NCBI RefSeq assembly: GCF_041260155.1
Contig: NC_091933.1
Location: forward strand, 23,094,599 to 23,158,598
Direction of reading: 5' to 3'
Source: Ptychodera flava
Taxonomy: Eukaryota > Hemichordata > Enteropneusta > Ptychoderidae
Length of the DNA: 64,000 bases
Shown here: positions 3,316 to 32,500 of the stretch, piece by piece
How the letters are laid out: every line of letters starts with the position of its first letter
Numbering within the stretch: position 1 is the first letter of the stretch
Program-made: the position numbers and the translations under genes
The notes under the pieces: model-generated
The model's input: the letters and a program-made list of their open reading frames with translations, nothing else
The model's database searches: none
What the model was told of the DNA's origin: nothing

Positions 3316-3459
3316 GTTATTACCCAATATGGCCTGTTCCTCTGTCATATCAGCATGATTGTCATTTGTGATGCGTCAGACACAAGTCGAGTGTCTGACG
3401 CAGAACAAATGACATGAATGCTGATATGACGCAAGGAACAGGCCCTATTAGGTAATAAC
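3316..3459. mobile_element. Second foldback / MITE-like inverted repeat
   Basis: The arms (GTTATTACCCAATATGGCC at the left, its complement at the right) pair over about 68 bases with a handful of mismatches, around a 7-base loop AAGTCGA flanked by GTCAGACAC and GTGTCTGAC. It carries no open frame. It is a different family from the foldback at 1,300 and is somewhat more diverged between arms, so it is probably older. Confidence 0.8.
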
Positions 3460-3694
3460 TAATTTATCACGTAACCAATGCCCAGAAGTTTACAAATGAT
3501 AGAAAAAGCCTTAAATTTAAAGGCTTTATTTTCATCCCGCCATGCACATTAATATGGAAATCTTTCTGTAAACAGGCTTCATTTATAAACTATACGAAGA
3601 AGTCAACACCGTGTGCGACAAATCCTCCATATTTCAATGAACACCAAAAGAAAAGATACCAGGATTCAAATACAGTCGTACGGGAAGAACTTTT

Positions 3695-5196
3695 TAGCTC
3701 CGCTGTCAGCGACGCGGAGCTTATCAAATAGGTTGATTTTCCGTCGTCGTCCGTCGTCCGTCGTCGTCGTCGTCCGTCGTCGTCCGTCAACAATTGCCTT
3801 CTCCTCTGAAACCGCAAGTCCAATTGCTTTGAAATTTTATATGCAGTTCACTAAAGGTGACCTCACTTCAGTTTGTTCAAATCGTGGTGAAATTTGCATA
3901 TTTGTATTTTTGGGGCATTTTTTGGTGTTTTTGGTAAAAAAATCTTCTTCTCTGAAACCGCTTGTCAGATTGCTTTGAAATTTTATATGCAGTTTGCTTA
4001 CGGTGACTTCAGTCAGATTTGTTCAAATCGTGGCGAAATTTGCATATTTGTATTTTTAAGGCAATTTTTGTCATTTCTGGTAAAAAAATCTTTAAAAATC
4101 TTCTTCTTCAAAACTGCCAGTCAGATAGCTTTGATATTTGCTACATAGGTCCCTAGGGATGAGCTATTTCAGATTTGTTCAAATTGTGCAGAAATATGCA
4201 AATTTGCATTTTTAAGGCAATTTTTGCCATTTTTGGTAAAAAAATTAATTTCTCAAAAAGTACTGGTCTGATAGTTTTGAAATTTGGTATACAGGTTTCT
4301 ATCGATGAACTAAGTAATATGTATTGAATTTCTGATGAAATCTACAATTTTGTATTTTTGGGGCAATTTTTGCCATTTTTGGTCAAAAAATGTGTATTTC
4401 CAAAACTACTCATCCGATAGCTTTGAAATTTGGTATACAGGTTCCTACAGATTAACTTAATGATAGTTATTGAAATTATGATGAAATCTACAATTTTGTA
4501 ATTTTGGGGCAATTTTTTCCATTTTTGGTCAAAAAATGTGTATTTCCAAAACTACTCATCCAATAGCTTTGAAATTTGGTATACAGGTTCCTACAGATCA
4601 ACTAAATGATAGTTATTGAAATTATGATGAAATCTGCAATTTTGTAATTTTGGGGCAATTTTTACCATTTTTGGTCAAAACATGTGTTTCTCAAAAAGTA
4701 CTGGTCTGATAGCTATGAAATTTGGTATACAGGTTTCCATAGATGACCTAAATGATATTTATTGAAATAATGATGAAATCTGCAATTTTGAATTTTTGGG
4801 GCAATTTTTCCTATTTTTGGTCAAAAAATGCGTTTCTCAAAAAGTACTTGTCTAACAGCTTTGAAATTTGGTATACAGGTTTCTATAGATGAACTAAATT
4901 TGATCTTTTGAAATTATGATGAAATCTGCAATTTTTACTTTTGGGGGCAATTGTTGCCATTTTTGGTCAAAAAATTTATTCTCAAAAACTACTCATCAGA
5001 TAGCTTTGGTTGACATGTTCTTAGGGATGATCCTATGTGATACATTCAAAGTATGATGAAATCTTCAATTGCGTATTTTTGCAGCTTATTTTAGCCACTT
5101 TTTTCTGGCCACTGCATCGAGCTATCAAAGATTTCCACCCTTCTTCATCAACATGTGTCAAAAATAGTTATTCTCTACATAAACACAGCGGAGCTA
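3695..5196. mobile_element. Element of about nine 146-bp tandem units between 12-bp inverted repeats
   Basis: The left boundary carries TAGCTCCGCTGT (3,695-3,706), and an exact reverse complement lies at 5,185-5,196. Next to the left end is a GTC/CGT-rich microsatellite (about 3,740-3,790). Between them the phrase GAAATTTGGTATACAGG, or a close variant, recurs near 3,831, 3,976, 4,132, 4,280, 4,425, 4,571, 4,717 and 4,863, with a decayed copy near 5,008. The spacing is 145-148 bases except one of 156. The flanking units are the most diverged, as expected of an array that expanded from its middle. Open frames inside it only reflect the repeat. It is a non-autonomous element or satellite seed, with no transposase. 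Confidence 0.75.
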
Positions 5197-5306
5197 TATC
5201 GGCCGCTAGGTCGCTTGTTAAGTGTATTATACGATATGATCATTAATGATCAAAAACTGTCCTCTGCTTTCAATCTCTCCTGATTTTTATCGCATTCAAT
5301 CGTTGC

Positions 5307-5338: not shown

Positions 5339-7510
5339 CACATGGAACGGAGAGAGGCAGCCATTTTGTTTGTTTACACTGAGAATTGCCATGTCAACAG
5401 CTGTCGTGCGTGCGACATCGCTGTCACGCTGCACACTCATTACCTGTTTGGAGGTTGACTGTCTTGTGCGAATGGCAGAATATCTGCTAGAGCTTTCCTA
5501 AAAAATTACAAGAACTTGAATGGAATAACCACTGGATAGCAGTATAAGATTCAACGTGTAATTCCTGTATTTAGCTATTGGAAATGTCATTGTTCCTCAA
5601 AGCCTTCCAAATTTTTATGTCAGCAACATTGCATGGTAGGCGGAGAGCAGCAGCCATTTTGTTTGTTTACTTTGTTTACTATTTAATTGCAAATTTAGTT
5701 TGGGGAACATTCCAAAACTGATGACGTTTATCGTGCATATCTCGATGTTTATCATAAAATATCATGGCCAATATTTTACGGTAAACGTCACCAGGATGGA
5801 GTGATATGGGCATGGGTGTATGATTAACTTCAGTATCAATCACAGCACAAGGTGAACTCGGTTGAATGTAGAAACTCATAGTTTGGATGAACAGAGAGCA
5901 AATTGTTTCTATGGGCAACAATTCAATGAAAAAATATTAGCAGAATGTAAATTAGATAGGTATACAGTGAAAAATAGGTGTGCTGCTTTGTCAAAATACA
6001 GGGAGCTTGTTCATAATTTTAGTCAGTCAACAAATAACAAGCTCTAAAATTGTCAGAAAAAATTGGAAGTTTGAAGTTCCATCAAAATGTGAATTCAAGG
6101 CATACTTTTGGTGCAAGAATTACATTATTATGAACTGTGGTGTCCAAAAGACACAAATTAACGAAAAAAAGCATCTACACCCACTGTTTGTGGGACAGTC
6201 ACACTGGACAGTTTCTTGACCCTCTGTGCCAGTGAATACCCAGTATTTCAAAGCCCAGCGTAGTTCAGTGGAGAATTTGTATGACGTTTTGTTGTTCTAT
6301 TCAAAAATGTTGAGGACTTCATATGTCAGTATTTACAGAAATCTGTCTCACTATCCTGTCAGCATCGTATAACTGTTCTTGTCTTGCAAACTGTACACAC
6401 ATACTGTGAGATTTTTAAATAAAAAGGAAATATTTGTCAACATAGATTATCATGATTCTTGAAGTATGTATTATCAAGTATTTACATTTTGTTATAAAAA
6501 TGTCGACAATGTAGAGTAAGTGTACGCTTCATGCATTTTGATTCCAAACTCTAGCTGTTAAGATTTTTAGTGCTTGGCTGTGTCCTTTAGATAGTGAATA
6601 GCCCAAAGTAACGAAACATATGTTGAACAGATGGTGTTGTCTGCAGTCAATACATATCAGACAAATGTTGTGTTGCTGTAATAATAGAAATATATAAAAT
6701 CAAAGGAAGATTTGTATGCCAGCAATTTGCATAAACGTGTTTCTTTTTTATGTTTTTAATCCTGAATTATGAATGCAGAAGGACAGGTTCTGTATCTCAT
6801 CACCATCAAAACCTTAGTTACAGCCTACAATCATGCACTCAATTTCATTATTGACGAAATCAGCATCAACGACACCAGGTAACTTGAAGGGGTACATTTA
6901 GTTTATTTTTTTGCCCATTTTCAACAGATTACGCAGGCTGCGCCACCAGGGATAGAGTCACTACAGCAGTCGTAATTCCTCATTCCTTACCCTAGTTGCT
7001 GCTGACACTGACTGTATTTATGTGATTTTAGTCCATTGTTCTCCTTTGAAAGTTGTGTGCAACTTGCTCAGAGATAATGCTGATAAAAAACCTACCCCTG
7101 TAATGAGGGAATGATCAAACAATGATGGGCTGGCTGTCCCTTATTTAAAAGACCAACAGTGTAAACATTCATAGGGACCAAAATTCAAGGCAATCTGAGA
7201 TTTTCTGACCAAAAAACAAACACATTCTGAAAGCACCATTGCTATTATACAAATTGATGCATAATTTACATTGTCCCTGGGTGTAAGTCTAAATATCTGA
7301 CATGCAATTTCAGTTGATGAAAAAGTTTTGACCAAAGGACTGAAAAATTTTCAGAAACAATATTCTATCCTCATCCTAATTCAAACAAATCTGAATAAGA
7401 ATGTTCTGTATCATCAGGAAACCAAGTTTTACAGTAATCAGTAAAGGGCTTTCTGAAAAGATTTTTTTTTCTGCAAAATATGACAGCAATATTACAATCT
7501 TAAAAGTACA
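5339..7510. other. Non-coding DNA between repeat elements
   Basis: Short open frames exist, but none has conserved-looking composition or splice context. A plus-strand AATAAA occurs near 6,418. Composition is AT-rich and similar to the first 3 kb. No tRNA, rRNA or transposon protein was recognised. Confidence 0.3.
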
Positions 7511-8810
7511 ATTAAAGCTGCAAGCAGCGTTGGCGGGGCCCAAGCGGTTGCCATGGTTGAAAGTACTTGCACTGATGATACTATGTGCACATTTTGAGCT
7601 TCCATGTGTCTTGTGTGTAGAGAAATTTTTAGACTAGTTGTTAACACATTTGAAAATACATTTAAAAGCTGACGCATCTCAATTCTCATTTAAAATGATT
7701 TTGAAAAGTATGCTTGACAGAGAGAGGCGAACAAGCATTTTAAGTACGTGACAATTGATGTATATCATCTTAGCTCATTCTGTAAATTTACCATGTGTCC
7801 TATGTGTTGATTAATCCTTAAACTAGTTGTTATACATGAAAATTTCGTGTCAAAGATCGTTTTCCCGAGTTCCCATTTACATCACTTTGAAAAGTGTGTG
7901 TGTCATAGACAAACGGTAAATAGCATTACAATAAATTTCAACTGATTATGTGGTCACTTGTAAGCCATACAGACTGATGTGATGACAAGAAAAATAAAGT
8001 TTGTTTTTCTCATCCTCGCGCGTGTCAATTCAGATCTGCTGTGTCCACCTATTTTCTGCTAATGAGGAAATAAATGAAAAAAACTGCAAAAAATACATCA
8101 CGATAGTGCATGTATAAAACAGAACTGTAAACTAAATAATTGACACTAACATATCATTCAGAACTGTACACATATTTGACTGTTATATTACTCTGTGAAA
8201 AATTTGCAAATGTTGCACTTAAAGTCAAACCGCTGAACTGTTGCTGTACAAAAATAATAAAGCAACACTGCTGTTCATTTATCTCTGCGTGCATTCATAT
8301 GTTGTTGCCATTTTTTCCCGCGTTGTTGATTGAAGAATAAATAAAGAAACCCGCGTCACCACATAATTTTTGAAATATGTCTAGGATAACAAAGAAATGT
8401 TTTATTTTTCTTGGCATACTAGTTGTTTTGATGACCTGTATACTATGAATTTGAAAATGTTGGGTAGAACAAAAAGGTGTTCTTCAAAACCTGAAGATTC
8501 CAAATAATAAACTGCAAAAGTTACTGGCAATAACAAAGTATGGAGTTGTCACTCAGGAAATAAATGCTAAACATCGTGGTAAAAGTTGAAAATACTGTCT
8601 CTTTTATAAGATTACAATTTTTGCAATAAGAAGAGTGGGTAGCTGAACAAATCATAACAGCCTTGAGTACGAATCCTCCTTTTTAAGAGTCAAATAATAC
8701 TAGTCCTGAGCACTGTTTCTGTTGAGTGAAATGCTCCCTTAGCAGTAACTTTAAAGGCTAGTTATACTTGTCAAAAGTTAGGCGTATGCGATGCAGCTAT
8801 ATTTAATAGT

Positions 8811-10279
8811 TACAAACCTGTAATCGCTATCAATGCAGTACTGTTCATATCGCGCTATAGACAACGGCACGAAACCTGCTTCAGCATACCAGTTTTTCAA
8901 ACGAATTAGATATCCATTCTCATAGCAGTTCAAAAGTAAAATACTCTCAGACTTGAGAAATGTGTGCATTTTAGACTTTCGACACATTTGCTTTACGCTT
9001 TAATTTAGCGAGCTTTGGTAGCTCGATGAATTTAGCAAGCGATGCATATGCTCGGACAGCGCACAGTGTATCGATGACACTTGGGTCAGGGGTCATCACC
9101 AAAAACGTCAGAGCGTATTCACGGCGAGCTCGAATCATGCCAGGATCGCAGAAATCATGGATCATAAATCCAAATGTTCATGTCTATTACGTAAAGAGAA
9201 CCCTAAAATATAAAACACATAATGATTTGATATGGAGAAAGATCTTTTTGTTTCACTGACAGTCAAGTTAAATGCTCAAATATCGCGACAAGACTTGCGC
9301 ATTGGCACAATATGAATGCGTAAGTACGTCAACTGTACTCGGCGGACGAGCGAGCGCCTTCTCTGAAAATCTGTTTACGATATCACGTCACAATTAATAC
9401 ACTGAAATTTCTTGCGAATTCATCTTTAAGGAGGCCAATTCACACAAGTTCCTAACGTCAGTAAAGATATTTTCTTGTTGTCAGCAATACACCACCAATG
9501 TTTTCACCGTTCAGGAGTGCCTTACTCGCTCTACGTTGACAAAAAAGGCGTAAGCTTTTGACCATGCAAATTCCAGTCGACTTTCCTACTCTGATCATAA
9601 TCTTTCTTTCCATTTCATAGCTCTACTTGTGCTATATTGGTGGAGCTGCCTAAGTCAAAAAACGAAAGTTTACCGTTTTTGCTTAGTTTCACCGTCACTA
9701 CAATCCTTCAGTGTTGACGACGACACTGTACTGCACAGTGCACGGAGTAATCTGTAGGCACATTGTGCGAAGTTGTCCAACCCAAAACTTAGTAAGATTT
9801 TAGTCAAATAGTCATGGTAAACATATGGGGTACTTTTGGTTTGTGAGCTATTTCGTTACAATGTTATTCATTACTGTATGTGTTACAAATACGATCTTCT
9901 GACGGGGATGAACAGAGATAAAGCATTACTTCTCAAGTTGAATGCAGGACAGCGCGTGGACAGACTAAGTGATGACATATCATAGTACAATTTTCGATTC
10001 GCAGGTTTGGCTAATTTTTGCCTAAATCTTCTCGGCAAACGCTACTTTTTTCTCGCATTTGCGATTTTGCGAGCAGGCAGCGGAAACACTGTCTGCGTCA
10101 TTGCGAACAAAGGAAGGCCACAACGCACCTTATTTTCAAGCAGGCGATTTATGTTTGTTTTTCAGATTTCGTCCATTGAAAATCCTACCCGCACGCGAAA
10201 AGCAAACAAGAATTTATTGTATGGCGCCTAATGTAGAGTGTGTGGATAAAATACACAAGGAAAGTGCTAAATGAGTCAT
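8811..10279. repeat. Block shared with unit D (left part of the duplicated segment)
   Basis: This stretch matches 18,208-19,240 in the same orientation. Both begin TACAAACCTG or AACAAACCTG and share long runs through the Ter-like and CpG-rich part near 8,990-9,540. After about 9,560 the two copies differ: this one has about 700 bases against about 285 in the other. Minus-strand open frames at 8,971-9,165 and 18,371-18,556 encode similar short peptides (shared FLVMTPDP, IDTLCAVRA and KRKANVSKV). I do not recognise them. They may be a captured host gene fragment or simply conserved because the copies are recent. Confidence 0.6.
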
Positions 10280-11095
10280 GGAGTTGATCGTTTGACAGAA
10301 TCTAGTACCGCTTAGTTTCGAAGTTAGAGGCAGTCCTTAGAAGTCGGATTTGTGAAAACCTGTAAGGTGGTGAAATCTACGATATATATATCGGATATTT
10401 ACCAGCGATTTGACAGAATCTAGTATTGTCTAGTATCGAAGCTAGAGTCAGTCCTCGGAAGTCGGGTTTGACAAGAACTGTGAGGTGGTGAAATCTCCGA
10501 TACATATCGGATATTTACCCGCGATTTGATAAAATCTACTATCGTCTAGTATCGAAGCTAGAGTCAGTCCTTTGAAGTCGGGTTTGGCAAACCCTGTAAT
10601 TTGGTGAAATCTCCGATATATACCGGATATTTACCCGCGATTTGACAGAATCTATATCGTCTAGTATCGAAACTAGAGCCAGTCCTTGTAAGTCGGGTTT
10701 GACCAAAACTGTAAGGTGGAGAAATCTCCGATATCGGATATTTACCCGCGATTAATTGACAGAATCTAGTTTCATCTAGTATCGAAGTTAGAGTCAGTCC
10801 TTGGAAGTCGGGCTTGACCAGAACTGTAAGGTGGTGTAATCTCCAATATATATATCGGTTATTTACCCGCGATTTGACAGAATCTAGTATCGTCTTGTAT
10901 CGATATTAGAGTTCCCAAATTGCCGATAAACATCGAGTAAATATCGGCGATTTCACAGATCTGGCGTACTGAAGCACAGGGCCGGTCATTCTACTATCGT
11001 CTAGTATTGATATTAGAGTCCGCAAATCGCTGATAAATATCAGGTAAACTTCGGCGATTTCACAGACCGGGCGTGCAGTGGCACAAAGCAATTAC
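10280..11095. repeat. 116-bp tandem repeat array (unit A copy)
   Basis: CAGTCC recurs at 10,331, 10,449, 10,565, 10,680 and 10,795, spacings of 115-118 bases. Each unit contains GACAGAATCTAGTATCG, GGTGGTGAAATCTCCGAT and the self-complementary core CGATATATATCG or a shortened form, followed by GGATATTTACCCGCG. The last two units (from about 10,900) are more diverged. A second array of the same unit lies at 19,240-20,400. Confidence 0.85.
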
Positions 11096-11749
11096 AGTGA
11101 AATACGATCAAGCTGCAGAACTTTATTAAACAAGGTGTTGTTTTAATCGATGTGTATCAGCGATTTTTACGACTTGATGTGGTCTTGTTTACATCTTTAA
11201 TAAGCTACATGCTCTCAGTTACGCATCACACCAGGGCCACTCCATGCATGTCTGATAGAGAAACATAAACAAATCACCACACCTTGCAATGTCATGTATC
11301 TTTCTTTGTTATTAGTTATGAACAAGTGAGCGTGAATTCAGACACCTATACATAACATTACCCGAATAGCTTCATTGACACTCACATATCAGCTGTGCGT
11401 AGACCCCAGTAATTGTGCCCTGGTGGGACCTTGTCCCGCTCTTATTCAGTCAATCACACCAGTCGGCCACCCCTTAAAGTTAGTGGCACACTGCTCTAAG
11501 TACTTCCGTGGCAGTATACTTGACAACGTCACCTGGCGTACAAAAGCTGGTCGCCAAAGTTGCCTTACACAAGGCGCCGAGATTAGGGTTCGTGTAGCTA
11601 GGGTTCGTGTGACTGCTAGCTGAATTTGACAGCGGGCATTGCAGTCTGTTGTGCCGTCTTTGACTTTCCAGTGTACAATATATCATACATCACTAATCGA
11701 TCTTCTGACTGACGAGGTATTAGACTGCAGCCTTATGAACATTGAGGCG
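11096..11749. repeat. Spacer shared by units A and D
   Basis: This non-coding segment is closely matched by about 20,400-21,080. It includes AGGGTTCGTGTAG and AGGGTTCGTGTGA side by side (11,586-11,612), which read as two telomere-like words in this copy. The other copy has one. The open frames in it differ between the two copies in length and phase and are not genes. Confidence 0.6.
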
Positions 11750-12700
11750 ACTTAACCGATCCAAATGCTGTTCGCAAACTTGAAAGTGCTCGCACTAAGA
11801 AAGATATGGGTAAAATTTCAGTTGAATCTGTGTGTTTGTTTTTGAGAAGAAGATTTTTAATGATTAAACTGCGATTTTCGCTATATCCAATACTGCGAAC
11901 AAACCTACTGACTGACCCAAACGCCTTTTGGAAATTAAAAAGAACTACCACTAGGGATTATGAGTGTAAAATTTTAGTTCAATTTGTGTATTTGTTCTGG
12001 AAGAGAAGATTTTTAAAGATTAAATTGCGATTTCACAAAATCCAATATGGTGGCCAAACCACGTGACCGATCGAAATTTTTTTTGCAAACTTGAAAGAGA
12101 TCACTGTAAGGATGACATGAGTAAAATTTCAGATTAATCAGTGTTTTGGTTCTGGAGAAGAAGATTTTTAAAGATTAAATTACGATTTTTCGCAAAATCC
12201 AATATGGCTGCTAAACCACGTGACCGATCCAAACGCCTTTCGTAAACTTAAAAGAGATCACACTAAAGATTATATATATATAATTTTAGTTCAATCGGTT
12301 GACCGGTTCAGGAGAAGAAGATTTTTAAAGATTAAATTGTGATTTCACATAATCCAATATGGCGGCCAAACCACGTGACCGATTGAAATGGTTTTTGCAA
12401 ACTTGAAAGAGATGACACTAAGGATGACATGAGTAAAATTTCAGCTTAATCGGTGTTTTGGTTCTGGAGAAGAAGATTTTTAAAGATTAAATGAATATTT
12501 TTGAAAATCCAATATGGCGGCCAAAGTCACGTGACCGCACGCGATTTTATTTGCAAATTCTAAAGACCTTAGGTCAGGCTTGCTACACAGAAAATTTCAA
12601 ATCGACTAGACCCCTAGGTCTTCTGGAGAAGCCGTTTTTAGGTTTTTGGAAAATCCAATATTGCCGCCAGGTCACGTGACCAATCAAAATTTCAAGGGTC
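11750..12700. repeat. 156-bp tandem repeat array with YY1-like and CACGTG motifs (unit A)
   Basis: About six units with a period of 155-157 bases: the TATGG of the core falls at 12,046, 12,203, 12,358 and 12,513. The unit reads roughly AAATCCAATATGGCGGCC, AAACCACGTGACCGATC, CAAACTTGAAAGAGATCAC, a TTCAGTTGAATCGGTGT-like phrase, and TGGAGAAGAAGATTTTTAAAG. The terminal unit is distinctive (GACCCCTAGGTCTTCTGG, then GCCAGGTCACGTGACC). It is followed by GACCTAGGTCGAC-like sequence and the GAAGAA tail. Confidence 0.85.
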
Positions 12701-12814
12701 AGGTGCACGAGTACTAATTGACACCTATTTGCCCTGCAAATTTGAGAAGTTTTCGTTCAGCCGTTTAAGAGATCTAGGTCGACAAAGAATCGGCAGAAGA
12801 AGAAGAAAAAGAGG

Positions 12815-15011
12815 ATTAAAGCTGCAAGCAGCGTTGGCGGGGCCCAAGCGGATAACATGGTTGAAAGATCTTGCACTAATGATATTATGTGCAAAATTCG
12901 ATCTTGGAAAAGTATGATTTTGAACATCATCTCATAGTTACTGTACGTGTCAGTGGGAATTGCATATTCTACGTAAAATCCAATATGGCGGCGAAATATG
13001 AAGGATGTAGCACTTGTGGTTACTGAGTTATGGACATATACTGATATTTAAGGGCAAAGGTCAACGAGGTCACGTGACATTTTGTCAAAAAAATTGTAAA
13101 GCTTAGTTATCCCTATATACCAAAAATCAGACCTCTAGCTCTATTGGCTAGCTCAGAATTAGATATGCGCATAATTAATGAGGTACAGGATGTGGTGTCA
13201 TAAGGTCTCCCATCATACCAAATATGAAGGGTGTAGCACTTGTGGTTACTGAGTTATGGACATATACGTATTTTCAAGGTCAAAGGTCATCGAGGTCATG
13301 TGACATTTTGTCAAAAAAATTGTATTGCTAAGTTATCCCTATATACCAAAAATCAGACCTTTAGCTCTATTGGCTGGCTCAGAATTACATATGCGCATAA
13401 TTAATGAGGTACAGGATGTGGTGTCATAAGGTCTCCCATCATACCAAATATGAAGGGTGTAGCACTTGTGGTTACTGAGTTATGGACATATACGTAGTTT
13501 CAAGGTCAAAGGTCATCGAGGTCATGTGACATTTTGTCAAAAAAATTGTAATGCTAAGTTATGCCTATATACCAAAAATCAGACCTCTAGCTCTATTGGC
13601 TGGCTCAAAATTAGATATGCACATAATTAATGAGGTACAGGATGTGGTGTCATAAGGTCTCCCATCATACCAAATATGAAGGCTGTAGCACTTGTGGTTA
13701 CTGAGTTATTGATTTATACGTATATTCAAGGTCAAAGGTTATCGAGGTCACGTGACATTATGTCAAAAAAAATTGTCTTGCTAAGTTATCCCTATATACC
13801 AAAAACCAGACCTCTAGCTCTATTGGCTGGCTCAGAATTAGATATGCGCATAATTAATGAGGTACAGGATGTGGTGTCATAAGGTCTCCCATCATACTAA
13901 ATATGAAGGGTGTAGCACTTGTGGTTACTGAGTTATGGACATATACGTATTTTCAAGGTCAAAGGTCATCGAGGTCATGTGACATTTTGTCAAAAAAATT
14001 GTATTGCTAAGTTATCCCTATATACCAAAAATCAGACCTTTAGCTCTATTGGCTGGCTCAGAATTACATATGCGCATAATTAATGAGGTACAGGATATGG
14101 TGTCATAAGGTCTCCCATCATACCAAATATGAAGGGTGTAGCACTTGTGGTTACTGAGTTATGGACATATACGTATTTTCAAGGTCAAAGGTTATCGAGG
14201 TCACATGACATTTTGTCAAAAAAATTGTAATGCTAAGTTATGCCTATATACCAAAAATCAGACCTCTCGCTCTATTGGCTGGCTCAGAATTAGATATGCG
14301 CATAATTAATGAGGTACAGGATGTGGTGTCATAAGGTCTCCCATCATACCAAATATGAAGGGTGTAGCACTTGTGGTTACTGAGTTATGGACATATACGT
14401 ATATTCAAGGTCAAAGGTCATCGAGGTCACGTGACATTTTGTCAAAAAAATTGTATTGCTAAGTTATCCCTATATACCAAAAATCAGACCTTTAGCTGTA
14501 TTGGCTGGGTCAGAATTAGATATGCGCATAAAATCCAAGATGGCGGCCAAATCATGTGACCAATCCAAATGTCTTTCGCAAACTTAAAAGAGATCACTCT
14601 GAGGATGAGATGAGTAAAATTTCAGTTAAATCGGTGTGTTTGTTCTGGAGAAGAAGATTTTTAATGATTAAATTGCGATTTTCATAAAATCCAAGATGGC
14701 GGCCAAATCACGTGACCGATCCAAACGTCTTTCGCAAACTTGAAAGAGATCACTCTAAGGATGACATGAGTAAAATTTCAGCTAAATCTGTATGTTGGTT
14801 CTGGAGAAGAAGATTTTTAAAATTAAGTCGGTATTTTTCGCAAATCCAATATGGCCGCCAGGTCGCGCGACTATTCGAAATTTCTATACCCAGGTGCACG
14901 AGATCTCATAGGTACCTATTAGCCCTGCAAGTTTCAGAAGTTTGCGGTAAGCGGTGATTGAGTTCTAGGTCGACAAAAAAAGAGCGGAAGAAGAAGAAGA
15001 AGAAGAAGAAG
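12815..15011 (+). mobile_element. Helitron/Helentron-like non-autonomous unit B
   Basis: It starts directly at the GAAGAA tail of unit A with the same 5' end (GGGGCCCAAGC at 12,839-12,849) and ends in its own (GAA)n tail against the 5' end of unit C. It is 2.2 kb long. After a short 5' segment it is filled by a 226-bp tandem array (12,990-14,530) and then about two and a half 156-bp units with the family's terminal unit. It has no coding capacity. The direct tail-to-head junctions on both sides suggest a concatemer, not independent insertions. Confidence 0.6.
12990..14530. repeat. 226-bp tandem array, about 6.8 units, each with a DR1-type element
   Basis: AAGGTCTCCCATCAT recurs at 13,202, 13,428, 13,654, 13,881, 14,107 and 14,333, spacings of 226-227 bases. 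Copies differ at only a few positions, so the array is young or homogenised. Most units carry AGGTCAAAGGTCA (for example 13,277-13,289, 13,503-13,515, 13,956-13,968, 14,408-14,420). A further AGGTCA follows three bases later and runs into CACGTGAC or CATGTGAC. The array joins the following 156-bp units in mid-unit at about 14,528. Open frames through it are artefacts of the period. Confidence 0.9.
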
Positions 15012-15169
15012 ATTAAAGCTGCAAGCAGCGTTGGCGGGGCCCAAGCGGTTAACATGGTTGAAAAATCTTGCACTAATGATATTATGTGCAAACTTCGAGC
15101 TTGAAAAAGTAGGATTTTGAACATCATCTAATAGTTACTGTACGTATCACTTGGAATTTAATATTTTAC

Positions 15170-16440
15170 GGAAAATCCAATATGGCGGCAAAACCACGTG
15201 ACCAATCAAAACACATTTTGCAAACTTGAAAAACATGACACTTAGATGGTGTATGGAAAATTTCAGTCAAATCGGTGTTTGTTCGGGAGAAGAAGATTTT
15301 TAAAGATTAAATCACGATTTTCGAAAAATCCAATATGGCGGCCAAACCACGTGACCGATCAAAACGCCTTTTGCAAACTTGAAAAAGATCACACTTAAGA
15401 TGTTACATGTCAAATTTCAGCTCAATCAGAGTGTTGGTTGTGGAGAAGAAAATTTTTAAAGATTAAATCATGATTTTTTCAAAAATCCAATATGGCGGCA
15501 AAACCACGTGACCGATCAAAACGCCTTTCAGAAACTTGAAAGAGATCACACTTAAGATGTTACATGTCAAATTTAAGTTGAATCGGTGTGTTTGTTTTTG
15601 AGAAGAAGATTTTTAAAGATCAAATCATGATTTTCGCAAAAATCCAATATGGCGGCCAGACCACGTGACCGATCAAAACGCCTTTCACAAACTTGAAAGA
15701 GATCACACTTAAGATGTTACATGTCAAATTTCAGTCGAATCGGTGTGTTTGTTCTGGAGAAGAAGATTTTTGAAGATTAAATCACGATTTTAGCAAAATC
15801 CAATATGGCGGCCAAACCACGTGACTGATCCTAACGCCTTTCGCAAACTTGAAAGAGATCACACTTAAGATATTACATGTCAAATTTCAGTCGAATCGGT
15901 GTGTTGATTCTGGAGGAGAAGATTTTTAAAGATTAAATCACGATTTTCGCAAAAATCCAATATGGCGGCCAGACCACGTGACCGATCAAAACGCCTTTCG
16001 CAAACTTGAAAGAGATCACACTTAAGATATTACATGTCAAATTTCAGTCGAATCGGTGTGTTTGTTCTGGAGAAGAAGATTTTTGAAGATTAAATCACGA
16101 TTTTCTCAAAATCCAATATGGCGGCCAAACCACGTGACCGATCAAAACGCCTTTCGCAAACTTGAAAGAGATCACACTTAAGATGTTACATATGAAATTT
16201 CAGTCGAATCGGTGTTTTCGTTCTGGAGAAGAAGATTTTTAAAGATTAAATTGGTATTTTTCAAAAATCCAATATGGCGGCCAAGGTCACGTGACCGCAC
16301 GCGATTTTATTTGCAAATTCTTAAGACCTTAGGCCATGCTTGCTATACAAAAAATTTCAAATCGACTAGACCCCTGGGTATTCTGGAGAAGCCATTTTTA
16401 GGTTTTTGGAAAATCCAATATGGCCGCCAGGTCACGTGAC
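15170..16440. repeat. 156-bp tandem repeat array (unit C), eight regular copies
   Basis: The core TATGGCGG falls at 15,181, 15,334, 15,491, 15,648, 15,804, 15,961, 16,117 and 16,273, giving spacings of 153-157. All eight have the GCGGC word. Nearly all have CCACGTGACCGATC 10-15 bases downstream. Identity is higher here than in the unit A array, so this array looks the youngest. Confidence 0.9.
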
Positions 16441-16593
16441 CAATCGAAATTTGTATACCCAGGTGCACGAGATCTCATAGGTACCTATTAGCCCTGCAAG
16501 TTTCGGAAGTTTGCGGTAAGCGGTGTTTGAGTTCTAGGTCGACAAAAAAAGAGCGGAAGAAGAAGAAGAAGTAGAAGAAGAAGAAGAAGAAAG

Positions 16594-16700
16594 TTGAATT
16601 CCTATAAAACCAATAGGGGCCCAGCCGGTAGGCTTGGGCCCCTAAATATTGAACTCCTATAAAACCAATAGGGGCCCAGCCGGTAGGCTTGGGCCCCTAA
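16594..16700 (+). repeat. Doubled 3' terminus with GC-rich hairpin ending CTAA
   Basis: Two near-identical units of about 52 bases (16,594-16,645 and 16,649-16,700) each contain CCTATAAAACCAATA and end in a hairpin: AGGGGCCCAGCC, loop GGTA, GGCTTGGGCCCCT, then AA. The next base is T, giving the CTAA|T pattern typical of Helitron 3' ends. The hairpin abuts the end, where classical Helitrons leave several bases. Repeated termini are known in this superfamily. Confidence 0.7.
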
Positions 16701-17035
16701 TTAAAGCTGCAAGCAGCGTTGGTGGGGCCCAAGCGATTAACCTGGTTTCCAAATCTTCCACTGATTATATTATGTGCAAAAATTTAGCTTGAAAACAGTC
16801 AAGTTCTTGTAAAGAAGAATTTTGAACATCATCTCACATTTATCTGTTCCATGCAAAATACAATATGGCGGCAAAAACATGTGAGCGATCTAATTGCCTT
16901 TCACAAACCTGAAAGAGCTCTCACTAAGAATGACAAAAGTGGAATTTCACTTCCATCAGTGTTTTGGTTCAGGAGAAGAAGATTTGTAGAGATAAATTGC
17001 GATTTTCAAGAAATCAAATATGGCGTCTTAAACTG

Positions 17036-18207
17036 AGCACGGTGACCTACCAAAAATTTGTTTCAAAAGTACAAGACATATATGATTTAGATACTACTCA
17101 AAATTTACAATACGGGAAGGTTAAAATATTCCATCAAATAAATGTATTAATCTCTGAAATTTTTGGCGCAATAATTGCAAATTTGGTTAAAAAATAAATA
17201 ATTAGTCATATATTTTTTCATTTCATCTTTACTGTTTAAAGTTATACTTTTGTATAATGTTTTGACAAAACTGTGAAAATTTAGAAAATCAAGCATGGTG
17301 ACCCCCTCTTTTTTCTTTAATATTTGATTATTCTCATATGCTAGAATGCAAAAATTTTTATGTGTTCTTCCTTGTGTTGCTTTCTGGCCTGATCTTGTTT
17401 AGGTAATGTTTTACTGTCATGAGACAAAAACTCTTCTTCAACTACAATGTATATCGGAGTCAGAGGTATCTCTGTCACTGCTCACGTATATACTACAGTA
17501 GCAGGGCGGTATCTGATAGTGACAGTTGCCCATAGGAAGAAGTTGTATTAACTTTGATAATTTTGACACTATTTTTGTTCAGTTTATCATACAACTGCGT
17601 TCTTGTTCTACTCTCTACAGCATGTTGAACTGTCCAGTATTCAGCTTGCTAGCACAGCCTGTGTATGTGTACCACGTATCAGTGCTGACAACTGACTGTC
17701 AGTCTGGACTCTAATCAAACTATCACCTAATACATATTTATATATACAGGTTTTGTCGACAAACTGAACATTGTGTGTTTGAGCATGCTGTAGGGAGACA
17801 GCAGGAAACTGTAGTTGATATATTAGATAGATTGCAAAAATCATCAACGGTTGCAGCTTCTGCCCTGTTACTAGGCTCAAGTTAGATTTTTTTACGACAA
17901 TCACACATGTTTAGATTTTTTCAAGATATAAGTCATGGAATGTGACAAAATGGTTCTAGATTCTGTTAAATTATTACTAACATAACAACATTTGAATGAC
18001 ATAAAAATGGTATTCACTTCATTAGATTACCTACAAAAAAACTTGGAATCGGAAAATGTAAAACATAAAAGGGAACCAATAAATTTTCAAGTGCCCCCTG
18101 CAGGTAGAGCAAAATTTTCAAGTCCCCCTCTACTACCCCCAAAATTTTCGATTTCCCCTTCCTGAATGAATACCTCCAGCCCCCCTTTTTTTGTGAACGC
18201 AGCCTTA
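17036..18207. other. Private DNA inside unit D, no gene seen
   Basis: The sequence is AT-rich and mostly unrelated to the other units. Near 18,075-18,190 are C-rich runs alternating with AAAATTTTC (for example CAAGTGCCCCCTGC and CAAGTCCCCCTC), probably the end of another small repeat. Open frames in the region have no recognisable similarity. Confidence 0.35.
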
Positions 18208-19239
18208 GTAACAAACCTGCAATCGCTATCACTGCTGTACTGTACATATCGCACTATAACGGCACGAAAACTGTTTCAGCATACCAGTTTTTCAAACGAA
18301 TTATACGTAGATATCCATTTTCATAGCAGTTCAAAGTAAAATACTCAAAGACTTGACAAATTTGTGCATGTTAGACTTTCGATACATTTGCTTTACGCTT
18401 GAATTTAGCATGGAGCTTTGGTAGCTCCATGAATTTAGCAAGCGATGCTCGGACAGCGCACAGCGTATCGATGACAATTGGGTCAGGGGTCATCACCAAA
18501 AAAGTCAGTGCGTATCCACGGCCAGGTTGAATCATGCCACGGATCGCGGAAATCACGAATCATAAATCCAAATGTTCATGTCTATTACTTAAACAGAACC
18601 CTAAAATATAAAACACATAATGTTTTGATATGGAGAAACATATTTTTGTGTCACTGACGATCAAGTTAAATGCTCAAATATCGCGACAAGACTTGCGGAT
18701 TTGCACAATATGAATGCGGAAGTACGTCGACTGTACTCGGCGGACGAGCGGGCGCCTTTTCTGAAAATCTGTTTCCGATATAACGTCACAATAGCTGAAA
18801 AATCTTGTGAATTCATCTTCAAGGAAGCCAATTCACACAAGTTTCTAACATCAGTAAGGATATTTGCTTATTGGCAGCTATACACCACCAACATTTTCGC
18901 CGTTCAGGAGTGCCTTACTCGCTCTACTTTGTTAAAAAAGCCGTATGCTTTGGCCGTTTAAATTTACCCATGGAGATCGCCATTGTGAATCTCGCCGCAG
19001 AGACTCCAGTTAACCACAGACTGTTGCCGGGAACAAACACACCTGAACGCAGGGCTACTTTTGCACTAATAAACTTCACAAATTAAGGAAGTACATGTTT
19101 ACTGAGTGTTCCCACTGTAATAAGTTGTGCAAACAATTCTTCTGAACAGCTACACTATCAACTGAAATGGTCACACCTATTTAGACCTAGAACTATGGCA
19201 AGAGCGTCCAGCTTTGAATAGCAATTTTACCGACAGGCT

Positions 19240-20400
19240 GTGAGCAGATTTGACAAAATCTAATATCGCCTAGTATCGAAGTTAGAGTCGGTCCTTTGAA
19301 GTCGGGTTTGACCAGAACAGTAAGGTGGTGAAATGTCAGATATATATCGGATATTTACCCGCGATTTGACAGAATCTGGTATCGTCTAGTATCGAAGCTT
19401 AGAGTCAGTCCTGGCATGGATGTAAAAAATTACATCCATGGTCCTGGGAAGTCGGGTTTGACAAGAAGTGTAAGGTGGTGAAATGTCCGATATACATATC
19501 GGATATTTACCTGCGTTATGACAGAATCTGGTATCGTTAAGTATCGAAGCTAGAGTCAGTCCTTGGAAGTCGGGTTTGACAAGAAGTGTAAGGTGGTGAA
19601 ATCTCCGATATATATCGAACATTTACCGGCGATTTGAGAAAATCTAGTATCGTCTAGTAACAAAGCTAGAGTCAGTCCTTGGAAGTCGGGTTCGACCAGA
19701 ACTGCATGTAAGGTGGTGTATTCTTCGATATATATCGGATATTTACCCGCGATTTGAGAAAATCTATAGAAGCTAGAGTCAGTCCTTTGAAGTCGGGTTT
19801 GGCAAAACCTGTAATGTTGTGAAATCTCCGATATATACCGGATATTTACCCGCGATTTAACAGAAAGTATATAGTCTAGTATCGAAGCTAGAGTCAGTCA
19901 TTGAAAGTCGGGTTCGACCAAAACTGTAAGGTAGTGAAATCTCCGATATCGGATATTTACCCTCGATTTGACAGAATCCAGTATCGTTCAGTATCGAATT
20001 TAAAGTCAGTCCTTGGAAGTCGGGTTTGACCAGAACTGCAAGGTGGTGTATTCTTCGATATATATCGGATATTTACCCGGGATTTGACAGAATCTAGTAT
20101 CGTCTAGTATCAATATTGGAGTCCCCAAATCGCTGATAAATATCTGGTATTAAAATATCGGCAATTTCACAGACCTTGTGTGCCGAGGCACAGGGCAAGT
20201 CATTCTAGTATTGTGTGCTATTTATATTAGAGTCCCCAAATTCCCGATAAACATGCAGTAAATATATCGACGATTTCACAGATCTGGCGTACCGATGCAT
20301 AGGGCAAGTCATTCTACTATTGTCTAGTATCGATATTAGAGTCCCCGAATCGCTGATAAATAAAGGGTACATTTCGGCGGTCACAGACCGGGCGTGCAAT
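19240..20400. repeat. 116-bp tandem repeat array (unit D copy)
   Basis: Same unit as 10,280-11,095, with about ten copies. Phrases such as AAGTCGGGTTTGAC and CGATATATATCGGATATT recur with the same order and spacing. One copy carries a 26-base hairpin insertion at 19,415-19,440. The distal units (after about 20,100) are diverged in the same way as those of unit A, so the array had its shape before the two copies separated. Confidence 0.85.
19415..19440. mobile_element. Tiny 26-base hairpin insertion with a 7-base flanking repeat
   Basis: CATGGATGTAA, four A, then TTACATCCATG form a perfect 11-bp stem. Directly on each side is GTCCTGG (19,408-19,414 and 19,441-19,447). The other units of the array have a single copy of that heptamer-like site. 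This is the signature of an insertion with a target-site duplication, at an exceptionally small size. Confidence 0.65.
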
Positions 20401-21079
20401 GGCACACAGCAATTACAGTGAAGTTAGATCAAGCTGCAGAACTTCATTAAACAAGGTGTTGTTTTAATAGATGTGTATCAGCGATTTTTATGACATTTAC
20501 AGCTGGGCTTGATGTGGTCTTGTTTACATTTTTAATCAGGTACATGCTCTCAGTTACACAACACACCAGGGCCACTCAATGCATGTCAGATAGAGAAACA
20601 TAAACAAATCACCACACCTTGCAATGTCATGTATCTTTCTTTTTTATTCGTGATGAATAAGTGAGCGTGCATTCAGACACCTACATATAAAATTACCGGA
20701 ATAGCTTCATTTATGATCCTTGACACTCACATATCAGCTGTGCGCGCGTAGACCCCAGTAATCGTGCCCTGGCGGGACCTTCTCTTATTCAGTCAATCAC
20801 AGCAGTCGGCCACCCCTTAAAGCTAGTGGCACACTCCTCTAAATACTTCCGTGGCAGTATACTCGACAAAGCTTCACCCGGCGTACAAAAGCTGGTCGCA
20901 AAAGTTGCCTTAAACAAAGGGCCGATATTAGGGTTCGTGTGACTGCTAGCTGAATTTGACAGCGGGCATTGCAGTCTGTTGTGCCGTCTTTGACTTTCAA
21001 GTGTACAATATAACATACATCACTGATCGATCTTCTGACTGACGAGGTTTTACACTGCAGCCTTATGAACATTGTGGCG
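20401..21079. repeat. Spacer shared with unit A
   Basis: Counterpart of 11,096-11,749 with small insertions and deletions. It ends at the phrase GCCTTATGAACATTG, after which the 156-bp units start in both copies. No gene. Confidence 0.6.
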
Positions 21080-22300
21080 ACTTAACCGATCCAAATGCCT
21101 TTCGCAAACTTTAAAGTGCTCGCACTAAGAAAGATATGAGTAAAATTTCAGTTGAATCTGTGTGTTGGTTTTTGAGAAGAAGATTTTTAATGATGAAATT
21201 GCGATTGTCGCTATATCCAATATGGCAAACAAACCACTTGACCGACCCCAATGCCTTTCACAAACTTGAAAGTGCTCACACTAAGGGTGACAGAAGTAAA
21301 ATTTCAGTTGGATCGTTCTGGAAAGAATAGTTTTAAAGATGAAATTGCAATTTTTCACAAAATTCAATATAGCGGCCAAAGCACATGACCGATCCAAATG
21401 CCTTTCGAAAATGTAAAAGAACTGCCACTAGGGATAATGAGTGTAAATTTTTAGTTCAATCTGTACATTGGTTCTGGAGAAGAAGATTGCTAAGGATTAA
21501 ACTGCGATGTACATAAAATCCAATATGGCGGCCAAATTACGTGACTGATCAAAATGTTTTCTGAAACTTAAAAGGACTACCACTAGGGAAAATAAATGTG
21601 AAATTTTAGTTCAATTGGTGTATTTGTTCTGGAGGAGAAGATTTTTAAAAATTGCATTACGATTTCACAAAATCCAATATGGCGGCCAAACCACGTGACC
21701 GATCGAAATGTTTTTTGCAAACTTGAAAGAGATCACCCTAAGGATGACTTGAGTAAAATTTGAGCTTAATCGGTGTTTTGGTTCTAGAGAAGAAGATTTT
21801 TAAAGATTAAATTACGATTTTGCAAAATCCAATATGGCGGCCAAACCACGTGACCGATCCAAACGCCTTTTGCAAACTTGAAAGAGTTCACACTTAAGAT
21901 GATATATGTGGAATTTTAGTTGAATCGGTGAATTTGTTCTGGAGAAGAAGATTTTTAGAGATTAAATTGTGATTTCTCAAAATCAAATATGGCGACCAAA
22001 CCACGTGACCGATCAAAATGATTTTTGCAAACTTGAAAGAGATCGTTCAAAGGATGACATGAGTAAAATTTGAGCTTAATCAGTGTTTTGGTTCTGGAGA
22101 AGAAGATTTTTAAAGATTAAATGAGTATTTTAGAAAATTCAATATGGCGGCCAAGGTCACTTGACCGCATGCGATTTTATGTGCAAATTATGAAGACCTT
22201 AGGTCATGCTTGCTATACAAAAAAATTCAAATCGACTAGACCCCTAGGTCTTCTGGAGAAGCCATCTTTAGGTTTTTGGAAAATCCAATATGGTCGCTAG
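21080..22300. repeat. 156-bp tandem repeat array with YY1-like and CACGTG motifs (unit D)
   Basis: About eight units with the same consensus as the arrays in units A and C, more diverged. Several cores are altered (ATAGCGGCC, ATGGCAAAC) and several boxes have lost the CACGTG (CACATGACC, TACGTGACT). It finishes with the same terminal unit as unit A (GACCCCTAGGTCTTCTGG). Confidence 0.8.
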
Positions 22301-22445
22301 GTCACGTGACCAATCAAAATTTCAAGGGTCAGGTGCACGAGTACAAATTAACACCTACTAGCTCTGCAAATTTGAGAAGTTTTCATTCAGCCGTTTAAGA
22401 GATCTAGGTCGACAAAGAATCGGCAGAAGAAGAAGAAAAAGAGGA

Positions 22446-22577
22446 AGAAGAGGAAGTAGTAGAACTTGAGCAATAACAATAGGGTCCCAGCCGGTCGGCT
22501 TGGGCCCCTAAAGAAGAGGAAGTAGTAGAACTTGAGCAATAACAATAGGGTCCCAGCCGGTCGGCTTGGGCCCCTAA
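22446..22577 (+). repeat. Doubled 3' terminus of unit D
   Basis: Two 66-base copies (AGGAAGTAGTAGAACTTGAG, then CAATAACAATAGGGTCCCAG, ending in GGCTTGGGCCCCTAA), one ending at 22,511 and one at 22,577. The hairpin has one G-T wobble relative to the unit C version. The next bases are TAAT, so the element again ends CTAA before T. Confidence 0.7.
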
Positions 22578-22608: not shown

Positions 22609-22674
22609 AATGAAACCATCGCGAAAATGAATTAATGGTCATGACCATTAATTCATTTTCATGATGGTTTCATT
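22609..22674. repeat. 66-bp near-perfect palindrome with no loop
   Basis: AATGAAACCATC and its complement GATGGTTTCATT close a palindrome whose centre is GGTCATGACC. Only about four bases near the outer third (CGCG opposite ATGA) fail to pair. It lies 32 bases beyond the 3' end of unit D. It could extrude a cruciform. Family unknown. Confidence 0.85.
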
Positions 22675-29500: not shown

Positions 29501-32500
29501 CGTTTCAACCTTCACTGTGGTTTTTTTAATTTTGTTCACTCCTATTACCACTAGATGATAGTTACATCTGACAGTGCTGGCAACTCAATTTAGACAGTCT
29601 GCCTAGTTCCCATATTGCCAACAGTTCAACCACTGTATGACAAATTCACTTAAGTTACCTCAGAATGGTTGACCTTTGGCCTTGGACGTTGCTTCTGTTG
29701 GACAGTGGTGGTTGTGGTGGTGGCGGCGGTTGCAGCAGTAGTGGTTGGTGTAGCAGTAGGTACAACTGCAGCATCAGTGGCATCTGAAGTGTTGGTGGTA
29801 GTTGCAGGGCTAGCAGTGGCAGCAGGGGTGGCGCTTACCTGGCCATGGCTCCTCACGTCTTTCTTGGCCATATTTCTCCTGCTGTGTATGGTATTATCCA
29901 TACCCACGAGGTCAGCCGGGATGACAGGCTCGTTGACAACTCCCCACCTCTTCCTTTCCTTCTTAGTTTCTGGAGAGGAGGCCTTCTCTCCCCTGAATCC
30001 ATCGGAACCCTGACCCCTTGCTGACCGTCCCCTTGGCTGACGTCTGTTGACTCCTTGCCACTGTCTGCCATCGGTGGAGTCAGCACCACTGTCTCCCTCA
30101 TCAAACTGACCATGGTCGTCATCCTCCGTACTCTCAGAGGTATAAACATCCTCCCTGTCCGGTGAATCAAGCACGGATGCCACTGATCCCTTCACAGCCA
30201 TGCCATTGTTAGCAGCATTCAACTCACTGCCATTCTGGAATTCATTTGGCGAAAGCCCACCGTTAGATCCCTTGTCCTCATTCCTCAAGGAATGTATATA
30301 AACCTGACCTGACTCTGGTTTACCAGCCTCTGGGAGTTGAGATCCTTTCTTCTTCTTGTCCGACTTCCTTTTCACTTTCTTTGCTTCCATGGCGATATTC
30401 TTCATTGCATCTTTCTGGGCTTTGTCTCTTTCCATCTCTTTCCTGAAAAAAATTGCCACATACAACATCTATTCCCAGCATTCTGCAGGAGATATCACTT
30501 TAGTCACGGAGCCTACATGTAGGGTCTTTTCCAAGGTCAATGGTTCATAAAAAATGGTATAAAGTGCAATGGACCTGATTTCTGACTTACATCAAATAAC
30601 TAACAAATCAAAGGTCATTCATACACTAGTGACTGGATGGGGCTATCACTGGTGCTACTGCAGACTGAGTTTCTGGTGTGTATAAAATTTAATGATACAG
30701 ACATAACATAATTAACCATACAAATCTGTGGCTATACTCCTATTGTAGGGATCAGTATACACATATTGACTGGCCATGAGCGCAACAGCATACGTCTGTA
30801 TCCCGAGGGACTGTGTCATCCCGGAAAACAGACTGTTTCCCTCGGCCTACAGCCTCGGGAAACAGCCTTTTATTGGGGGGTGACATAAGAATGTACTATA
30901 CACAAAACTTGTCACATGTATGATGTAATATGTTGAAGTGGTTCGGCAAGAAAAAGTTTTTCCCGACAGGGTCGCAATACTTCTGCAAAACATTCAATGC
31001 ACCTTTGATTATCGTTTTCGTTCGTTTAGAGTCCTTGTTGGAAACCAGAGCATTCAGTTCTTCTTCATAAACCGAGAAATTTCTCAACTATCGTTTCGCT
31101 CGGCCGCAGACGACATCTTTGTTTACAGTTCGCACATGTGCCAATTTTTTTTGACGTCAGCGGGCATCATTTTTCGGAACTGATGCCTGGCAGGCAACAG
31201 TTCCAACAAATGATGCCTGATGACGTCGTTTACGTGGATCAGCACAAAAAGAATGCATCCCACGTGACTATCAATTGGCAAATTAGAACACAGACTGCGG
31301 ATGGGGTGTTATAATACTAAATGAATCAGGTTCACGATCAAATTTAAAACTCACATGTGTTTAACAATCTGTAAAAATATATATTTTATTTATTACAATG
31401 AAATGTCACAGAAGCAGGGATACGTAAATTGTAACAATGGAAACTTACTTCTGTTTAAATTTTGAAGGAGACTGGAAGTACTCTTTGACCTGTTTTCCAT
31501 CAAAATTGATACTGAAATCTTTTGGGTATTCCCGCATCGCCGATTCCAAGACTGGCAGGGCTGAGTCCCGGATGTAATCGATCATCTCGAGCGACGCAAC
31601 CACCATCTTATCAAACTCCTGGACATTAAAACCTACGAAAGCAATATTATTCAAAGCATTATGCGGAAAATATTACTCGTTTACCGTCTGCATGCACTAA
31701 ACCTCAATAATGTGCATTCACAATCTTGGCATAATATGAAACCATACACTAATCAATTCTTGAAAGCTTAATAAAATATACAATTGCAGTGCAATAATGA
31801 TATTGGTATTATACCTTGCTCTAAACTTGGAAATGAAAAAGTCATTACATTCAGTTTTTCAGTATTTACCAACAGGAACACTCACCAAATATATTCCATG
31901 GATAACAATTTTATCTTAGGTTAAAAAAGGTAAGTTGAGATTATTACCTTCATGCTCTCTTGTCATGGCAGTGACTTCTGAAGTTGTGTGTACAACATTA
32001 GCAAGGAGACGACATGCCGGTCTCAGTACATTGGGTCTGTCCAGGTGTCTTTCCATGGCATTGACAACCAGCTCTATTGCACACTGACGGACTGCACCCT
32101 GGAGTTTGAAAAGCATTACATGTAAAACTTTCATTTTGGATTTACTGTCAAGATGAACATACCAAATGTACACACCTGTTAACCTCGATAAGATACGAAG
32201 ATAATTCATAAGCAAATTTGAAAGCTGAGAGAATGATTGACAATTGACAGTACCTTCAATTAGATGTTTTTTGTTGCTTGATTGATCCATTGTTTTGGGG
32301 GTGTTTTCACAAAATAACTGGTACCAGTACACTACTACAGACGATTTCACACACGCTAAACAACTAACTGTGTGACATAAGCACTTTGTTTGTGATGACC
32401 CAGCATATGATTTATATATACAAAATGTTTGTTTAAAACAATGAGCTGTGTGGCTTGAATGAAATCCACTGTAACTGGTCTAAACAAAGTCTGTGTTGAA

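Follow-up and report, generated by a model that had tools for sequence, protein, structure and literature searches.

Within a 64,000-nucleotide stretch of the Ptychodera flava genome (contig NC_091933.1, positions 23,094,599 to 23,158,598 of the forward strand; hereafter the window), positions 7,511 to 22,577 hold repeated units with common ends, described previously as a head-to-tail concatemer of four Helentron-like elements. We find that this region very probably consists of four non-autonomous Helentron-associated (HINE/DINE-1-type) elements nested on the minus strand, and not of a rolling-circle chain. The concatemer is not supported: the units form two subfamilies by tail alignment (A with D, B with C), only the junction at 16700 brings a 3' end to a 5' end, and the other joins fit nested insertion in exact or near-exact register.

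Recurrent ends and parts of the probable nest

One end of each element is marked by a 34-nt sequence, TTAAAGCTGCAAGCAGCGTTGGCGGGGCCCAAGC, with exact copies at 7512, 12816 and 15013 and a copy with one mismatch at 16701. No further copy was found on either strand of the 64 kb, allowing up to 10 mismatches. With one mismatch in total and no other match at this threshold, the four ends cannot reasonably be attributed to chance. The base preceding this sequence is A in all four copies, hence the starts at 7,511, 12,815, 15,012 and 16,700 reported in the preliminary description, whose recurrent end is confirmed at these four places only. The 11-bp inverted match said to link the two element ends (GGGGCCCAAGC and GCTTGGGCCCC) proved equally specific, with four copies per strand and none elsewhere in the window at 0-1 mismatch. 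A hairpin motif, AATAGGG[G/T]CCCAGCCGGT[A/C]GGCTTGGGCCCCTA, is present at 16612, 16667, 22478 and 22544, with no further occurrence in the window at up to nine mismatches. These terminal hairpins are paired ahead of 16700 and ahead of 22577, where Tandem Repeats Finder detects 1.9 copies of 55 bp (16594-16700, 98% matches) and 2.0 copies of 66 bp (22445-22577, 100% matches), respectively.

The region can be divided into the following parts, the 5' module being counted as the first 100 nt, opening with TAGGGGCCCAAGCC, and the 3' module as the last 60 nt.

22511..22576, minus strand: element A, orphan 5' piece (5' subterminal repeat and inverted repeat, then the beginning of the pyrimidine tract); 66/66 identical to the start of intact D
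7511..12814, minus strand: element A, body and 3' end (remainder of the pyrimidine tract, arrays of 155 bp and 116 bp, 3' subterminal repeat and palindrome, then TTTAAT); aligned with D from offset 66
16700..22510, minus strand: element D, complete, inside the pyrimidine tract of A and 5' of B; of A's subfamily
16645..16699, minus strand: element B, orphan 5' piece; 52/55 identical to the start of C
12815..15011, minus strand: element B, body and 3' end (TTC tract, then 156-bp units split by a 226-bp array); offset 64 on C, 117/120
15012..16644, minus strand: element C, complete (157-bp array), within B's TTC tract, at the start; from arrays and join alignments
22564..22574 (A), 22498-22508 (D), 16687-16697 (B), 16632-16642 (C), minus strand: 5' subterminal repeat GGGGCCCAAGC; motif search
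7535..7545 (A), 12839-12849 (B), 15036-15046 (C), 16724-16734 (D), minus strand: 3' subterminal repeat GCTTGGGCCCC; motif search
7517..7528 (A), 12821-12832 (B), 15018-15029 (C), 16706-16717 (D), minus strand: 3' terminal palindrome GCTGCTTGCAGC; motif search

Read on the minus strand, the 5' pieces of A and B seem displaced rather than missing. After joining, the elements measure 5370 (A), 2252 (B), 1633 (C) and 5811 nt (D).

Register of the joins

Among 200 offsets tested, the body of A aligns best with D at offset 66 (114/120 identities; next best 46), and the orphan piece of A is 66 nt long. For B, the best offset on C is 64 (117/120; next best 57), with an orphan piece of 55 nt. The joined A (22576-22511 followed by 12814-7511) aligns with D in one BLAST block covering bases 1-1126 (88.4% identity, 126 mismatches, 4 gap openings), with 419 nt aligned without an internal gap. 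No difference from D occurs in its first 125 nt, 59 of which lie beyond the join.

On the minus strand, the ends follow one another as 5'A 5'D 3'D 5'B 5'C 3'C 3'B 3'A. The four 5' ends and four 3' ends hence pair off like balanced brackets whose subfamily labels agree, as do 84 of the 2520 possible label arrangements. This is a consistency check and not an independent test, as C and D are contiguous in any case and the 3' ends were labelled from the bodies.

The bodies of A and B start in a tract without a hairpin, whereas D and C are each preceded by a second hairpin, which is of A type beside D and of B type beside C. The GAA tails without hairpin and the doubled hairpins arise because these pieces are the halves of interrupted elements. 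The doubled hairpins noted earlier are present before 16700 and 22577, but the second of each pair belongs to the interrupted element (B and A, respectively). The proposal that each unit starts exactly where the preceding tail stops holds at 16700 and fails before 12815 and 15012, where the end of one element meets the pyrimidine tract of a different one.

A single rolling-circle event that bypassed termination, giving a concatemer that diverged later, would account for the common orientation of the four units. Passages of PMC7492417 and PMC4067079 do report tandem Helitrons whose inner copies are truncated, and for three tandem Helitrons in Metarhizium acridum the corresponding passage of PMC5148889 allows either repeated 5'-end insertion or rolling-circle replication. 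However, a bypassed stop copies one element, so that two subfamilies with differing arrays and the unequal lengths given above do not fit one failed-stop replication. Furthermore, the one internal join of three that does run from 3' end to 5' end unites different subfamilies, D and B, and the register of the other two speaks strongly against this origin, which we consider very unlikely.

A second alternative is that C and D arrived as chimeric elements with double 5' ends, A and B being 5'-truncated copies that abut them by chance. The mobility of doubled 5' ends is proposed in the Fusarium model, as set out in part of PMC5148889. In this case, however, the truncation points would have to match the orphan pieces (66 versus 66 nt, and 55 versus 64 nt) as well as the subfamily types by coincidence, and we likewise assign this explanation only a very small probability.

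Architecture and orientation of the elements

Once A and B are joined, every unit reads on the minus strand as TA-GGGGCCCAAGC, inverted repeat, TTC-type tract, ~100 nt of conserved sequence, arrays, and GCTTGGGCCCC-GCCAAC-GCTGCTTGCAGC-TTTAAT, with ACCAAC replacing GCCAAC in the spacer of D. This is the layout given for DINE-1/HINE elements in the relevant parts of PMC2374699, PMC4067079 and PMC7492417: a 5' block of subterminal repeat, partly complementary inverted repeat and microsatellite, then central tandem repeats, and finally a 3' subterminal repeat with palindrome. It bears out the Helentron-like (Helentron-associated, DINE-1-like, non-autonomous) kind proposed initially. All five DINE-1/HINE features examined were found. 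The 11-bp subterminal inverted repeats lie near both ends of all four joined elements. The 5' hairpin has a predicted fold energy (DNA parameters) of -10.8 kcal/mol in A and D and -14.6 kcal/mol in B and C. The 3' palindrome, with a 5-bp stem, lies downstream of the 3' subterminal repeat in all four; when the last 41 nt are folded, B, C and D form a weak hairpin of 3-4 bp at the palindrome (-3.5 to -3.7 kcal/mol for the whole stretch). A TTC-type microsatellite in the 5' block and central 116-, 155-157- and 226-bp arrays are present, and the internal satellite arrays noted before were recovered by Tandem Repeats Finder in all four units (116-bp and 155-bp in A and D, 226-bp and 156-bp in B, 157-bp in C). 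The region contains no open reading frame (ORF) of at least 120 aa.

In the HINE orientation the elements begin with TAGGGG... (or TTAGGGG...) and end with ...GCTTTAA(T), flanked by T on either side. ATTAAAGCTGCAAGCAGC, taken as the 5' end in the preliminary description, is in this convention the 3' end. The suggestion of a new lineage, based on a deviant TTAAAGC 5' end, arose because the element was read backwards; once reversed, the units match the published DINE-1/HINE layout and the suggestion is no longer supported. As the 5'/3' designation is itself arbitrary in DINE-1 given the absence of ORFs (stated in a section of PMC2374699), the minus-strand orientation is a convention and no proof of replication polarity. 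A canonical Helitron (Helitron1: 5' TC, 3' CTRR, hairpin ~11 nt before the 3' end, inserted between an A and a T) was also considered and does not describe these ends.

Target sites and proposed insertion history

The base before TAGGGG is T in all four elements, as is the base after TTTAA. Comparison of the A join with intact D indicates that the target held just one of the two Ts, so that insertion into TT with an element-borne T and duplication of a single T are indistinguishable at this site. There is no target loss at the A site, and the B site shows a length difference of three TTC units. At these two internal empty sites, insertion thus occurred in TT or T-rich DNA without a longer target duplication, the single T remaining ambiguous. 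Hence the target duplications of a cut-and-paste transposon, put forward earlier as evidence against Helentron-like elements, are absent relative to the intact homologues beyond that possible single T. The reconstructed host site would read AAGATTAT up to the insertion point and TGTACTTTT beyond it.

The absence of a longer duplication also bears on a short interspersed element (SINE)-like retroposon, copied via RNA, with a microsatellite at one end and precise 3' ends. All four elements do end precisely at TTTAAT with the other end near a microsatellite, and Yang and Barbash considered a retroelement origin for DINE-1 but favoured a DNA-mediated one (in the part of PMC2374699 concerned). Besides the target sites, the matching subterminal inverted repeats at both ends and the lack of a tail past the precise end argue against retroposition, which appears extremely improbable.

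For the preferred nested insertion, we propose that A landed first, in host DNA. B would later have inserted into the pyrimidine tract in the 5' module of A, and C into the corresponding tract of B, while D would have entered A's tract, directly 5' of B; the relative order of B and D is presumed. Transposition was presumably driven by the Rep-helicase of a Helentron supplied from elsewhere, with single-strand transfer into TT. The head-to-tail appearance may then result from TT being available on the pyrimidine strand of the TTC tract only, which would fix the orientation of insertion.

Several observations weigh against a nest of HINE-type elements. The join of B falls 9 nt short of C, a difference equal to three TTC units within the tract. 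The orphan and inner 5' pieces are more alike (66/66 and 52/55) than the A/D bodies (81-88%), as local hairpin duplication would also produce; against such duplication, the A/D identity extends the 59 nt beyond the join. For A, the fold predicted for the 3' end (last 41 nt, -5.0 kcal/mol) is a structure other than the palindrome. Dimensions differ as well from those in the relevant passages on DINE-1 and mite HINEs: the subterminal repeat is 11 bp (13 in DINE-1, 12-15 in mite HINEs); the palindrome stem is 5 bp, below the 7-11 of DINE-1 and within the 5-10 bp of mite HINEs; and the 3' subterminal repeat and palindrome lie ~23 and 6 nt from the end, compared to 38-60 and 8-35 bp in mite HINEs. 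Finally, random choice of TT would make three landings in this one kind of 5' module unlikely, so that an insertion preference must be assumed.

The first 100 nt contain 17 of the 1125 TTs in A and 20 of the 411 in B, counting same-strand TTs against those on both strands of the whole element. If all TTs were used evenly, the chance of two landings in the module of A together with one in that of B would be ~1 in 100,000 by rough multiplication. As the region was chosen for its unusual look, this figure is not a test and serves only as a reason for a genome-wide count. We tentatively suggest, as a possibility that is less probable than the nest itself, that the TTC microsatellite acts as a strand-specific landing pad for elements of its own kind, self-insertions being placed head to tail, with a doubled 5' hairpin and a fresh TTC tract each time. 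A TTC tract with TT on one strand only would explain the common direction of all four elements. If correct, this constitutes a self-reinforcing route from dispersed element to tandem clusters that requires no failed rolling-circle termination, and a cheap route to clusters and satellite growth; HINE families with a TT-free microsatellite (GTC types, such as element E below) would be expected not to self-insert in this manner. Insertion-site preference as such is not a new idea, the microsatellite as pad being the new part: the review PMC12628747, in its passage on this subject, credits McGurk and Barbash with tandem transposon pairs (dimers) in Drosophila that result from insertion-site preference. 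A Helitron-like family disrupting GAAA microsatellites appears in the reference lists of PMC4067079 and PMC4344730.

Subfamilies and possible exchange

The 3' parts of A (7650-8806) and D (17056-18205) share no match of at least 300 nt, while the other stretches common to both show 81-88% similarity. Over its last ~355 nt, D resembles C instead (73%). Taken together, the alignments suggest an exchange of the 3' part. The portion of A without a counterpart in D contains inverted 35-nt arms (7982-8016 and 8383-8417, 77% complementary, 366 nt apart), and a short palindrome lies at 8195-8218. Two inverted repeats of at least 14 nt were found in 7500-8900 and none in 16690-18300. The 35-nt arms possibly mark a small further insertion in the 3' part of A. 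In B, a 226-bp array at 12994-14531 (94% matches) lies inside the 156-bp array and looks younger than its surroundings.

Element E and sequence surrounding the probable nest

A second HINE-like element lies to one side of the nest.

~3694..5200, plus strand: element E, with 5' TTAGCTCCGC..GCGGAGCT hairpin, CGT-type microsatellite, 146-bp array and 3' subterminal repeat CACAGCGGAGCT at 5184-5195

Its array units align on the opposite strand with those of 155-157 bp, at 57-69% identity (matches of at least 80 nt; best E 3e-10), and its hairpin and CGT-type microsatellite are on the corresponding side of the array. The 3' copy of its subterminal repeat agrees at 11 of 12 positions, a level reached in none of 2000 base shuffles of 700 nt, with a query picked after the hairpin had been seen. 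Judged from these likenesses, element E, as an apparent distant relative in the opposite orientation, supports the DINE-1/HINE orientation convention.

A near-perfect palindrome at 22609-22674 (33-nt arms, 94% complementary, no spacer), located 32 nt beyond the nest on its 5' side, is possibly another foldback element. Among 25 of the 26 foldback pairs, long ones lie at 3344-3430, 1300-1485 and 31153-31227 (arms of 37-73 nt, 86-90% complementary), and many fall in a CAT-type repeat near 52.3 kb. Minus-strand reading frames extend over 29653-60767, one of them with a RING-finger exon match (Pfam E 2.1e-6), which we take to be probably ARIH2-like. A plus-strand frame at ~47.5 kb has a weak Pfam match to the sperm-tail PG-rich repeat (E 0.002), just under the cut-off.

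Sequence and literature searches

Pfam searches with 20 of the 143 ORFs of at least 45 aa in the region, including all 12 of at least 87 aa, gave no Rep or helicase match. Two ORFs had weak, unrelated matches below the cut-off (CpXC, E 0.018; PilZNR, E 0.095), and the other 18 had none at E 0.1. Rfam gave no match at gathering score across the whole window. In viral contigs the element ends were found only twice, both times in unrelated contexts, and an 18-nt end matched six times in contigs of 84,980 prokaryote species, all in unrelated contexts and close to the ~7-8 matches expected by rough estimate. No paper on an element with these end sequences was found among openly licensed PMC papers, the four that were listed dealing, to judge by their titles, with other topics; this absence carries little weight, most repeat families being deposited in databases instead. 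Similar end sequences may also exist in fish repeats, a point that plays no part in the argument here.

Comparison with known systems

The four units are non-coding elements of a known kind, and both HINEs and nested Helitron insertions are already known. As DINE-1 and HINE elements are described in sections of PMC2374699 and PMC4067079, the likeness comprises a 5' subterminal repeat 2-3 nt from the end, an adjoining partial inverted repeat, a 5' microsatellite and central tandem repeats, followed by a 3' subterminal repeat and a short palindrome, with no long ORF, TT-type sites and no target duplication beyond a possible single T. In contrast to those descriptions, the microsatellite here is TTC and not GTCY, and the units reach up to 5.8 kb.

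Cg_HINE and Pearl of bivalves, in the part of PMC7492417 devoted to them, similarly have subterminal repeats of 11-12 bp, a microsatellite in the left module and one or two kinds of satellite-like array in succession. Their GTC-type tracts are comparable with the CGT-type tract of element E, a likeness by description only. Helitron parts inserted in other elements are mentioned for oyster loci in a passage of the review PMC12628747.

A parallel for the joins is FoHeli, a Helitron2-type element of Fusarium oxysporum that includes putatively autonomous copies (PMC5148889, in the sections on its structure). There too, short doubled 5' ends accompany a single 3' end and are explained by self-insertion. 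Unlike the case here, where the orphan body of the parent adjoins the nest, those sections present the doubled 5' ends without an interrupted parent. The Ptychodera locus thus shows interrupted parents beside doubled 5' ends, a source that the Fusarium study had proposed. More generally, a head-to-tail series of HINEs with doubled hairpins can be a nest, and an easy check of register within one sequence separates nests from failed rolling circles.

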